This document shows positions 49,665-54,162 of a DNA stretch of 64,000 nucleotides, one piece after another. Numbering within the stretch: the stretch's first letter is position 1; every line of letters starts with the position of its first letter. A program made the translations under genes and the position numbers. Below the pieces are notes generated by a model. That model made no database searches, had not been told where the DNA came from, and saw nothing but the letters and a program-made list of their open reading frames with translations. This DNA comes from Pseudoalteromonas ulvae UL12 (GTDB lineage Bacteria; Pseudomonadota; Gammaproteobacteria; Enterobacterales; Alteromonadaceae), in NCBI RefSeq assembly GCF_014925405.1, contig NZ_AQHJ01000028.1, positions 372,001 to 436,000 of the forward strand, written 5' to 3'.

Positions 49665-50516
49665 TTAGAGCTTGATGACTTCGATACTGCCACGCTTTTG
49701 CATCGTGACATACAACGTATCTTCACTCGGGTTGAGTGCCACATTTGTCGGATGCTGACCCTTTAACTGATAAGTTTTAAGCACTTTGCCTGCTTTTGAT
49801 AGCTTTACAACCGTACCACTGCCATAACGGGCAATATACAAGTGACCAGCAGAGTCAGTGCGCATGCCATCGAGTCCAAAATCGTCAAAACGTATAAATT
49901 GGCGTTTATTACTAATCTGGTAATCTGAATCTAAGTCATACGCCCACACGACCCGTTGCACACTTTCATTAACAAATAATGTTGTTTGATCGGCGCTAAC
50001 CGCCACTCCATTGGTCGTACCCATATTTTTTTCTAACAGCAGTGAGGTGCTATCCGGGCTCACCCGCCATAATTGTCCAGATGAGTCGGCCCAATTAGGA
50101 TCGCTGGCAAAAATGAATCCGCCATTAGTGACAGCGATGTCATTTGGTTGGTTAAAATTGGGGTTATGGGCTAAAACGGACACCTCTTTTGTTTGGGTAT
50201 CTACTTTCAATACATTGTGGCCGGTGTAATCGGCCACCAGCAAGTCCCCATTAGCATCAAATTGCAAACCATTGCCGGTACTGCCTTTTGGCAAAGTGAC
50301 ATACAAAGAAGCCTCTCCCGAGGGGGTGACGATACCGATGGTGCCTTCTTTAGCAAAATTAACAGCAAAAAGCTGCCCCTGTTTTGACACAACCGGCCCT
50401 TCAACACCTTGGGTAAAGATATTATCCATAACAAAATCTTGGCTATCAGTTGCAGCTGCATCAAGGGTGCCACACGCTGATGCCATGAATAGTAATGATA
50501 AAAATGTTGCTCTCAT
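49665..50516 (-). CDS. SMP-30/gluconolactonase-like exported protein
   Basis: Protein of 283 residues with an N-terminal signal (about 20 residues; a Cys at 15 in MASAC gives a weak lipobox). The rest is a six-bladed beta-propeller of the SMP-30/gluconolactonase/paraoxonase type. Probable metal ligands in expected contexts are E39 (GVEGPVV), N125 (QPNDIAV), N169 (GTTNGVAVS) and D216 (GLDGMRTDSAG). Members are lactonases or related hydrolases, and the substrate is unknown. It is alone on its strand, 115 bases from the repeat-protein gene that ends at 50632. Confidence 0.82.
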   Translation of the reverse strand: MRATFLSLLFMASACGTLDAAATDSQDFVMDNIFTQGVEGPVVSKQGQLFAVNFAKEGTIGIVTPSGEASLYVTLPKGSTGNGLQFDANGDLLVADYTGHNVLKVDTQTKEVSVLAHNPNFNQPNDIAVTNGGFIFASDPNWADSSGQLWRVSPDSTSLLLEKNMGTTNGVAVSADQTTLFVNESVQRVVWAYDLDSDYQISNKRQFIRFDDFGLDGMRTDSAGHLYIARYGSGTVVKLSKAGKVLKTYQLKGQHPTNVALNPSEDTLYVTMQKRGSIEVIKL

Positions 50517-50631: not shown

Positions 50632-53600
50632 TTAAAGTAACGTTTTTTTAAAGTCACACTTTGGATATGAGGAGCAAGTAAAGGTTGTGCCGCCACTTTC
50701 ATCTGTTGATTGCTCAACTGTAGATAAACATTGTGGACAAAATGCAACAGCCTGACTAATAAATTGCTGTTCGCCTTCATCACAATTATGTTTTTCGTCT
50801 AGCTCTTCGCTTTGCGCTTGTATCACTGCGTGAATAGCTATCGGTGCTGTTTGCTCTGTTTGCTCTGTTTGCTCTGTTTGCTCTGTTTGCTCTGTTTGCT
50901 CTGTTTGCTCTGTTTGCTCTGTTTGCTCTGTTTGCTCTGTTTGCTCTGTTTGCTCTGTTTGCTCTGTTTGCTCTGTTTGCTCTGTTTGCTCTGTTTGCTC
51001 TGTTTGCTCTGTTTGCTCTGTTTGCTCTGTTTGCTCTGTTTGCTCTGTTTGCTCTGTTTGCTCTGTTTGCTCTGTTTGCTCTGTTTGCTCTGTTTGCTCT
51101 GTTTGCTCTGTTTGCTCTGTTTGCTCTGTTTGCTCTGTTTGCTCTGTTTGCTCTGTTTGCTCTGTTTGCTCTGTTTGCTCTGTTTGCTCTGTTTGCTCTG
51201 TTTGCTCTGTTTGCTCTGTTTGCTCTGTTTGCTCTGTTTGCTCTGTTTGCTCTGTTTGCTCTGTTTGCTCTGTTTGCTCTGTTTGCTCTGTTTGCTCTGT
51301 TTGCTCTGTTTGCTCTGTTTGCTCTGTTTGCTCTGTTTGCTCTGTTTGCTCTGTTTGCTCTGTTTGCTCTGTTTGCTCTGTTTGCTCTGTTTGCTCTGTT
51401 TGCTCTGTTTGCTCTGTTTGCTCTGTTTGCTCTGTTTGCTCTGTTTGCTCTGTTTGCTCTGTTTGCTCTGTTTGCTCTGTTTGCTCTGTTTGCTCTGTTT
51501 GCTCTGTTTGCTCTGTTTGCTCTGTTTGCTCTGTTTGCTCTGTTTGCTCTGTTTGCTCTGTTTGCTCAAGATTAGTTGTGTTGCCCCAATCCGGATCAAG
51601 AGATAAATTAGCAAATAAGTTTTTCTTTTCAACTACTTCCTCTGGATCCACAAGGGTTTTAGGATCGTTGCGAATTTCAGGTTTCAACCCTTTAGCGGCC
51701 TCTTGAGGCTTAAACTCCATTAAATGTGGATCAGTCGAGTCAACGCCATCGAGTTGTAATGATGGTTCAGAATCGCTCTGTTCATCTGTTTTATGATGAC
51801 TTGACTGTGCCTGCATATCATCTGAGCTGAGATTTTGTGCCTCTTTACTTTGATAAGAAGGTTTATTTTGGCGCTCTTTGATTTCATCAACAACTGATTC
51901 AGGCTCTGGAACATATTCACGCACCACAGGCTCTTTAAATTGGTGCTCAGTATATTGATGGGTTCGTTTAGCCTCTTTAGCCAATTCCATCGCATCGATG
52001 TGTGCAATGGTATCGACATCAAGACCGTCTTCCTGAGCTTCTGGTTCAGACACTAAGGCGTGCTCGTTTGCTTCATCGATTTTTTCTTCGAATGATGGTT
52101 GCTGTGCTTTGTCATCCTCGATTGTTTTGTTCACCGTTATTTCATCTGTCTGGAAGGATGGCTCTTCAATTGGCTGCTGAGCAGTTGCCTTTTCTTCTTG
52201 GCTTTTATCGTCTGAATCGACTGTTTTATCCTTTGCAGCCGTTGAGTTGATATCATCGATAAATGCTGCTGGGCTGACAAACTCACCGATATCTTGATCT
52301 ACCTCTTCATTATGGATTGAGGGTTTTTCTAGATCAGCTTGAGTGATATGCCCTAAAGGCGATTGATCATCGCTCGGTTTCGCTGTTGTATTCGTTGCTA
52401 CATTCGTTGAGATGCGCGCCGAAGATTGTTCATTCTGAGGGTTATTATCAGACTCTGTGTCTTTCTCCTCAGCTGGGCTTGCAGAGGCAATAAAACCATA
52501 TTGATCGACAGGTGTTTGATCTTGTTGATGATATTGTTCATTAAAGCGCTCAGTCAATACCTGTGTAAAATGTTCGACCTGTTCATCCATGTATTCAAGT
52601 TGCTTTATTCCTTTAATGGTGTCTATAAGTGCATGACGATGAATAATATTTTCTGGCATCGGTGATTTAAACGTCACGGAGTCATGAAACATCACTATCG
52701 GCTTTATCCCTTGTGAAATATCAAGCAATCGACCTAGAGCCATTGATAATTGATTCGCCAACTGTAATGGATTATCGAATGGGACCGTTTTGTCATCAAG
52801 CTGCTCTGACCATTGTGCAGCATTAGTTCCACCAAAAACTGCTCCTTTGACTTCTGGGGCGACAACAACAAAAATACCAAAAGCAGAGACAATCACACGT
52901 TCAATACTTTTGCTTTTATCTCCATCTATAGTGATGGCCAGCTGTTTAAATGACGAATAAAGTTCTGGATCGAGTCCTTTTGATAAACGCTTCTTTTTAC
53001 TTTTATCACGTTTAACAGCTTGAGATTTTTCAGTTACTTTGTCCGTTACTTTAGCAGCCAAAACAGACGTTTTGTTTTTAATCGTGGCCATGCGCCCTTT
53101 TACCAACCAAATCCCTCCCACTACAATTAACAATAAGGCGATGATTGCGAATGTTGGAATAAGTAAATCTGCAAATAATGATTGCTCTTTTTTTACGGGT
53201 GCTGCGGGTAAGTCAGGCGCTGATTTTATCGCGGTTTTCGCTTGCTCTTCCACAGTCGATACAGCACTCACTGACGGATTCGTTTGCTGTTCTTGTTCAT
53301 ATAACGCCTTTAACTGTGCTTGTTTTTCGTGTGTATCTTGATCTTGTTCAGCCAAGCTTTCTTTAGGCGTTGAATCGTTTAACTGGCTAGTGGCCTCTCG
53401 AGCTTGAGTTGAGTCTTGCTCATTTTGTATAGGCTGTTCGGCGGGCTGACTGATTGACTTTGCGTGTGTTTGTTGTTCAATTGGCGCAAAGGTACTCACT
53501 GCAGATTTATCTTCTGTAACGTGCGCTTTTACCTCAGGTGTCGTGATAGCTGGTGTTGATTTTTTTTTGGGTAAATCTCGGCAATCACGATCATAGCTTC

Positions 53601-53760
53601 TTTTCGCATCTCGATATTGTCGACTATTTGGTACATGACTAAATTGCGACACCTGCTGATTTAATAACAGACAAAGCGCCTCTTGATTAGGTGCAGCAGA
53701 CAACGCAGAACTAACAAATAGCGAGAAAAATAAAAGTGAGAGTGAACCAGAGCTAGACAT
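50632..53760 (-). CDS. Membrane-anchored NERD-like protein with Glu-Gln-Thr repeats and C4 zinc finger
   Basis: The protein has 1042 residues. In order it shows a signal peptide (about 1-22), a polar low-complexity stretch to about 195, one membrane helix at 197-221, a basic linker, and a NERD-like domain at about 265-405 (IERVIVSAFGIFVVV, then KGAVFGGTNAAQWSEQ, then NPLQLANQL). A long acidic, disordered stretch follows. Then come about 80 copies of Glu-Gln-Thr (about 732-971) and a topoisomerase-type zinc finger at 1008-1042 (C1008, C1011, C1029, C1035 with CSSYPKC). NERD proteins normally carry a nuclease-like E-x-K; here V-x-P stands at that place, so catalysis is doubtful. Function is unknown. 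Confidence 0.8.
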   Translation of the reverse strand: MSSSGSLSLLFFSLFVSSALSAAPNQEALCLLLNQQVSQFSHVPNSRQYRDAKRSYDRDCRDLPKKKSTPAITTPEVKAHVTEDKSAVSTFAPIEQQTHAKSISQPAEQPIQNEQDSTQAREATSQLNDSTPKESLAEQDQDTHEKQAQLKALYEQEQQTNPSVSAVSTVEEQAKTAIKSAPDLPAAPVKKEQSLFADLLIPTFAIIALLLIVVGGIWLVKGRMATIKNKTSVLAAKVTDKVTEKSQAVKRDKSKKKRLSKGLDPELYSSFKQLAITIDGDKSKSIERVIVSAFGIFVVVAPEVKGAVFGGTNAAQWSEQLDDKTVPFDNPLQLANQLSMALGRLLDISQGIKPIVMFHDSVTFKSPMPENIIHRHALIDTIKGIKQLEYMDEQVEHFTQVLTERFNEQYHQQDQTPVDQYGFIASASPAEEKDTESDNNPQNEQSSARISTNVATNTTAKPSDDQSPLGHITQADLEKPSIHNEEVDQDIGEFVSPAAFIDDINSTAAKDKTVDSDDKSQEEKATAQQPIEEPSFQTDEITVNKTIEDDKAQQPSFEEKIDEANEHALVSEPEAQEDGLDVDTIAHIDAMELAKEAKRTHQYTEHQFKEPVVREYVPEPESVVDEIKERQNKPSYQSKEAQNLSSDDMQAQSSHHKTDEQSDSEPSLQLDGVDSTDPHLMEFKPQEAAKGLKPEIRNDPKTLVDPEEVVEKKNLFANLSLDPDWGNTTNLEQTEQTEQTEQTEQTEQTEQTEQTEQTEQTEQTEQTEQTEQTEQTEQTEQTEQTEQTEQTEQTEQTEQTEQTEQTEQTEQTEQTEQTEQTEQTEQTEQTEQTEQTEQTEQTEQTEQTEQTEQTEQTEQTEQTEQTEQTEQTEQTEQTEQTEQTEQTEQTEQTEQTEQTEQTEQTEQTEQTEQTEQTEQTEQTEQTEQTEQTEQTEQTEQTEQTEQTEQTEQTEQTEQTEQTEQTEQTEQTAPIAIHAVIQAQSEELDEKHNCDEGEQQFISQAVAFCPQCLSTVEQSTDESGGTTFTCSSYPKCDFKKTLL
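50847..51567. repeat. Perfect 9-bp tandem repeat, about 80 copies
   Basis: The unit CTGTTTGCT (plus strand) repeats without any visible interruption over 721 bases, 80.1 units. It is read as Glu-Gln-Thr by the minus-strand gene. Because the period is a multiple of three, copy-number changes keep the frame, and all six frames stay open, which creates long false open frames on both strands. The copy number may be misassembled. Confidence 0.97.
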
Positions 53761-53886: not shown

Positions 53887-54162
53887 TCAGAAACTGAGTT
53901 TTTCTATTTGTGTCAGTCCAATTCGCCCGTTTAAGTCTTCAAATACTGACACTATGGCTGGATATGGGGAGGAATGAGGGGCCACTTGGATTGCATTACA
54001 TAAAAATGCGTAGTTAGTACCTTGATTATTTTCCGTCGATACAGCGACAGGCTCATATAATACAGCGTCAATGCCCGTTAAAGCACTGGTAAATACCAGC
54101 CGCGCTTGGGGGCTAATCTCATGGCTGAATTCTTTAGGCCCATTGTTGAAATGGTTTGACAT
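53887..54162 (-). CDS. Hypothetical small protein
   Basis: Protein of 91 residues with no signal peptide or membrane helix. It contains SPQARLVFTSALTGIDAVLYE and ends in a short beta-rich segment (AIVSVFEDLNGRIGLTQIE). I do not recognise a family. The ribosome-binding site AGGGA lies 8 bases before the ATG, and the frame is clean, which supports it as a gene. It stands alone between the repeat-protein gene and the DsbA-like gene. Confidence 0.6.
   Translation of the reverse strand: MSNHFNNGPKEFSHEISPQARLVFTSALTGIDAVLYEPVAVSTENNQGTNYAFLCNAIQVAPHSSPYPAIVSVFEDLNGRIGLTQIEKLSF

Follow-up and report, generated by a model that had tools for sequence, protein, structure and literature searches.

The window, that is, the whole stretch of 64,000 nucleotides from Pseudoalteromonas ulvae UL12 analysed here, carries a gene whose reading frame is crossed by a long tandem array of a 9-bp unit. 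The parts of the encoded protein and the genes on either side are collected in Table 1. Judged by eye, the protein appears to begin with a signal peptide, and within the two-cysteine domain C30, L32, Q35, Y49, A52, R54 and C60 are invariant in 18 aligned members of the family described below. The membrane helix is followed by a basic stretch with a net charge of +11 over residues 223–262, indicating that the remainder of the protein, including the array, is probably located on the cytoplasmic side.

Table 1. Features of the array-bearing gene and its neighbours in the window
Feature	Position	Strand	Basis
ORF of 1042 aa holding the array; NERD-containing, one predicted membrane helix	50632..53760	minus	ORF list, Pfam NERD
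Signal peptide (inferred by eye) and two-cysteine mini-domain, about residues 1–75	53536..53760	minus	aligned members
Transmembrane helix, residues 195–214	53119..53178	minus	hydropathy; helix also in predicted structure
NERD domain, residues 262–359, without canonical E-x-K	52684..52977	minus	Pfam PF08378
Acidic low-complexity linker, residues 401–712, net charge -46	51625..52560	minus	charge computation
Conserved tail motif LFANLSLDPDW, residues 715–725	51586..51618	minus	F[AS]NLxLD in 59/60 family genes
Tandem array, 80.1 copies of GAGCAAACA; (Glu-Gln-Thr)80, residues 732–971	50847..51567	minus	TRF
C-terminal four-cysteine zinc-ribbon-like domain, first Cys = residue 1008	50632..50742	minus	PF01396 below cut-off
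Upstream 91-aa gene without Pfam match	53887..54162	minus	similar gene, same place in P. tunicata-like genome (by eye)
Downstream SMP-30/gluconolactonase-like gene	49665..50516	minus	PF08450; P. tunicata-like counterpart, same place (by eye)

The match to the NERD family (PF08378) lies above the curated cut-off (27.8 bits vs 22.1, E 3.9e-6). In canonical NERD domains the D of QID and the E-x-K of VETKN are the putative nuclease residues, and these are absent from the array protein, which has IER and VVAPEVKG at the aligned places. The idea that the protein is a working nuclease whose linker varies was rejected on the loss of E-x-K, although the NERD part of the predicted model looks nuclease-like in fold; the matches named in the structure comparison of this model include no NERD structure, an outcome that speaks neither for nor against such a fold. 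Downstream of the acidic linker come the motif LFANLSLDPDW, the array and finally 71 residues with the ribbon. The cysteine pattern of the ribbon is CxxC followed by C-x(5)-C, and its score against the topoisomerase-type C4 zinc ribbon (PF01396), 17.8 bits, falls below the cut-off of 32. Used as a protein-database query, the ribbon gave no match at E 0.01, though genomes of the genus contain it, including a 53% identical match in a P. tunicata-like genome (G145). The first-pass annotation had described the array as a linker between a NERD-like membrane part and a zinc finger. For this one protein the order holds, with a NERD domain before the array, a four-cysteine ribbon (sub-cut-off) after it and one helix; the NERD domain is not adjacent to the array, however, but separated from it by about 370 residues that include the acidic linker and the conserved motif.

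TRF assigned the array a length of 721 bp, a period of 9, 100% matches and a score of 1442. It stands in codon phase 0 of the ORF and encodes exactly 80 Glu-Gln-Thr units, amounting to 240 of 1042 residues, or 23% of the protein, and to a net charge of -80. Hence the first-pass reading of about 80 perfect 9-bp copies over 721 bases was confirmed by TRF and translation, as was its point that a nine-base unit preserves the frame. Every unit is written with the codons GAG CAA ACA without exception; the probability of making the same synonymous choices 79 more times by chance is, as a crude figure from codon usage in 12 ORFs of the window, about 10^-95. Under stricter TRF settings (2/7/7) the 64 kb contain no other array, and a looser run added two weak rows with scores of 53 and 50. 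At assumed rates of 1e-9 to 1e-10, and with 721 bp free of substitutions, the array can be at most some 4e6 to 4e7 generations old, unless the copies have been homogenised. With head-to-tail copies inside an ORF, a unit that is a multiple of three, and unit or copy number differing among related genomes, the array is a coding minisatellite, or intragenic in-frame tandem repeat.

In no codon form did the other 107 genus genomes searched contain three EQT units in a row; a protein database search for (EQT)n returned 25 matches, none with more than three exact units, and neither genome contig nor protein database searches found a second strain with the (EQT)80 array, the contig scan with the single protein having confirmed no relative. 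A plasmid origin was also considered and set aside, one neighbouring 1-kb stretch having given no near-identity match in the plasmid collection, from which records of the same or very near genomes may be left out.

All six frames are open across the array, which would suit a role as DNA or RNA, be it as a structure, a regulatory element or a gene in another frame, rather than as protein. Nevertheless, because no frame of the 9-bp unit contains a stop, open frames are expected however many copies there are. On neither strand did a 90-base stretch from the array fold better than shuffles (z-scores 0.21 and -0.78), and the sister species G145 carries an unrelated DNA unit at the same place. Such a role is therefore extremely improbable, and a second gene on another frame and a DNA/RNA element were both rejected on the folding result and the different unit of the sister species. 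With no hairpin that outdid the shuffles, the array is most simply accounted for by plain slippage or by recombination of perfect copies with one another.

The closest ortholog found is that of G145, with 43% identity over query residues 10–410. Gene order, compared by eye, is shared as well: the 91-aa gene precedes it, and SMP-30-like and ferrochelatase genes follow. Between LFANLSLDPNW and the zinc ribbon, the ortholog carries 9.2 copies of an 18-bp unit with 95% matches, encoding EPENTI, which bears no resemblance to EQT. In both proteins the array starts seven residues after the tryptophan of the motif, and the distance from this tryptophan to the first cysteine of the ribbon is 282 aa in the array protein vs 81 aa in the ortholog. 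A different array in the same slot indicates that the linker does change in evolution. A length-variable linker, which the first-pass annotation expected to differ between cells or strains, is accordingly supported between species but not within a single one.

The same ortholog bears on the trustworthiness of the copy number. Over 772 aa the ortholog is 99.2% identical to P0001, a database protein that carries the label P. tunicata, which is why its genome is called P. tunicata-like. P0001 is marked partial; it comes from a 2873-bp contig and ends two residues before the EPENTI array, where the contig presumably broke. For this reason the number 80 is not fully trusted. The assembly of the P. 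ulvae genome consists of 34 contigs, and an exact tandem array of 721 bp exceeds usual short reads, so that the copy number may be wrong. There is a small chance that the array is real but that the assembler is responsible for its length or even for its uniform sequence. Against this, a contig of 462,978 bases crosses the array, the ORF is intact on both sides with 80 whole units, and a collapsed short-read graph would more likely yield a break or few units.

The gene belongs to a family that was defined by a profile of the protein's N-terminal part, counting one gene per genome, and that is present in 60 of 108 genus genomes. Secondary loci in G002, G003, G034, G053, G128 and G145 were left out of the 60, and the broken copy of G038 was counted as one 103-aa fragment. 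An alternative query, the first 420 residues, matched 85 of the 108 genomes, many only at other NERD proteins, and was not used. The family anatomy comprises the two-cysteine domain, one membrane helix and often a long acidic tail. Besides the broken copy, the members are 59 ORFs of 408–1042 aa, and all 59 carry F[AS]NLxLD near the C-terminus, the G038 copy being the sole exception. In these 59 members the part of the protein beyond the helix has net charges between -140 and +5, indicating that strong acidity is not universal in the family. A NERD region was recognised in 13 of the 60 genes, that of the window among them, by a profile built in this analysis, genus relatives being 24–45% identical to the array protein over the NERD part, and the four-cysteine ribbon occurs in two, those of the array genome (G000) and G145. 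Given these two counts, a linker between NERD and zinc finger misdescribes the family. In an order-wide sample of 394 genomes, 13 matched the N-terminal profile; two of them are from Pseudoalteromonas, and the matches outside the genus are partial. No description of the family was found in Pfam and NCBIfam scans and literature searches, which are the whole basis for calling it undescribed; literature searches on intragenic tandem repeats in Pseudoalteromonas also gave no match.

The broken G038 gene is interrupted by several stops (L145:1-4000). At 47 of the 60 loci, a gene from one particular sequence cluster is found no more than 5 kb away from the family gene, 46 times upstream and on the same strand, with a median distance of 84 bp; the one example checked of this cluster (e.g. 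L104:4900-6357) scored as a dGTPase above the NCBIfam cut-off, and neither the window gene nor its G145 ortholog has a member of the cluster next to it. The secondary gene of G145 (L106:3651-4721, 356 aa) joins the same two-cysteine N-terminus to a canonical NERD domain (PF08378, 107 bits), and second loci resembling it are also found in G002, G003, G053 and G128. In addition, open frames of about 120 aa in other genera of the same taxonomic family (L149, L150) seem to consist of the two-cysteine N-terminal domain by itself.

A comparison of repeat counts among relatives and a search for orthologs with and without the repeat, both suggested as checks in the first-pass annotation, were carried out across the family. 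Arrays reach a TRF score of at least 50 in 29 of the 60 genes and of at least 300 in 15; the other 31 genes, the broken copy included, have none at a score of at least 50, indicating that arrays are not required. They are present in 10 of the 13 NERD-bearing genes and in 19 of the 47 others. The family is enriched in arrays, as none of 227 non-family ORFs at the same loci (78,445 aa, 56 loci including the window) carries one, these control ORFs being non-overlapping, at least 150 aa long, chosen by length rather than annotation and not matched for disorder; four further loci were added to the gene counts only. The unit is divisible by three in 53 of 53 array rows, among which some overlap and describe one array. 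Unit lengths include 6, 9, 12, 15, 18, 24, 102, 120, 126, 144 and 165 bp, those of the large arrays being 9, 18, 102, 120, 126, 144 and 165 bp. With 80 perfect copies vs at most 12 in other family genes, the window array is, by copy number, the extreme case of a frame-preserving repeat hotspot in this family.

Copy number differs between close relatives in one instance and is stable in another. A shared 165-bp unit is present in 4.2 copies in G057 vs 2.1 in G135 and G136, over whose first 230 residues the proteins are 96% identical. G055, G058, G124 and G131, 93–98% identical over the first 230 aa, all have 3.0–3.7 copies of a 144-bp unit with five FGFDEY each, indicating that turnover is not always fast. 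The FGFDEY motif recurs within the repeats of part of the NERD-less branch, in 3–7 copies in 12 of the 60 genes (L098, L100, L103, L104 and relatives), and looks like a repeated binding motif.

Taken together, we favour the reading that the array is a young minisatellite that preserves the frame and lies in the acidic tail of an inner-membrane protein with a single membrane pass, a tail that is probably disordered and cytoplasmic. The array would owe its growth to slippage during replication, to unequal recombination of perfect copies with one another, or to both. Across the family, tails would acquire in-frame arrays, exchange them and lose them, with the membrane part and the short tail motif kept throughout; the reason, we propose, is that a tail's length and acidity count for more than its sequence. 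Both here and in the P. tunicata-like ortholog, the array may act as a tether that sets the reach of the zinc ribbon from the membrane-bound part. As a joint reading of young age, growth, swapping and tether, we hold this to be fairly probable. A further-reaching version is rather improbable: an undescribed family of envelope-anchored scaffolds whose tail serves as a dial for length and charge, with new arrays arising independently, (Glu-Gln-Thr)80 in runaway growth and a reach varying from cell to cell.

The array could also be neutral, a transient slippage expansion in an unconstrained stretch with neither a tether role nor selection on length or charge. Unit and position do vary freely among relatives, 31 of the 60 members lack an array, and the 721 bp without substitution allow the limited upper age given above unless homogenised. 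Yet the frame is kept in all 53 rows, and the conserved motif or, in two genomes, the ribbon lies downstream, indicating that the downstream sequence is under selection. The peptides of all 18 rows with scores of at least 300 are net negative, which also speaks against neutrality, although duplicating any part of an acidic tail would give the same result; overall, 42 of the 53 rows are net negative and 11 are not. We consider neutrality unlikely.

Long perfect arrays are especially mutable. The locus might therefore be a contingency locus, in which array length shifts fast within populations and yields adaptive diversity. A precedent is offered by tolA of E. coli: in-frame contractions occur at 6.9e-5, falling to 15% without RecA, and the repeat number varies among isolates and alters stress tolerance (PMC3477136). 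Here, by contrast, no second strain with the array was found, and the copy-number differences seen are between species. This possibility is quite doubtful.

As a kind, the array is already known: other envelope proteins also have in-frame repeats in their linkers or acidic regions. TolA, likewise an envelope protein anchored in the membrane, carries 15- or 18-bp in-frame repeats in its connecting domain; they are imperfect, lysine/alanine-rich, present in 8–16 copies in 234 isolates and joined to a periplasmic domain (PMC3477136), in contrast to the 80 perfect, acidic and probably cytoplasmic copies described here. Similarly, SmdA of Staphylococcus aureus has one helix, with the NERD domain and the C-terminal side in the cytoplasm, and lacks several of the most conserved NERD residues (PMC9040797). 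However, it is a protein of 302 aa with a short extracellular N-terminus, and the accessible part of its description mentions neither repeats nor a zinc ribbon (PMC9040797). Closer to hand, short NERD–zinc-ribbon proteins of about 255–270 aa in the same genus or order (L019, L023, L025, L027, L032, L034) share the domain order, namely a hydrophobic N-terminus, NERD and a four-cysteine ribbon. Unlike the array protein, they possess a canonical NERD (QID and E-T-K; QVD in L034), and their ribbon follows tens of residues after NERD vs about 650.

A further architectural parallel is with HubP/FimV, which combine a periplasmic N-terminal domain, one membrane helix and a long acidic cytoplasmic repeat region, the acidic repeats of HubP varying in composition, length and number between close species (PMC12918733). 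The array protein, too, has an acidic region with variable tandem repeats after its membrane helix, on the presumed cytoplasmic side. It differs in that its repeat unit is 9 bp and perfect, and it has no LysM or FimV_core match, on which ground membership in HubP/FimV was rejected. The genome has a separate FimV/HubP protein with FimV_core (L157:1595-6667, contig C26; 1691 aa), which carries 10.9 copies of a 186-bp unit and a net charge of -612. Since this other acidic protein of the genome also bears an array, the repeat hotspot may be a general property of acidic tails. By analogy, the family may be read as a HubP-like, membrane-anchored scaffold, for which the F[AS]NLxLD motif offers a concrete handle toward a binding partner. 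With its varied arrays, the family offers ready-made material for examining whether selection on disordered acidic tails acts on length and charge rather than on sequence, a question that bears equally on HubP and other bacterial scaffolds.
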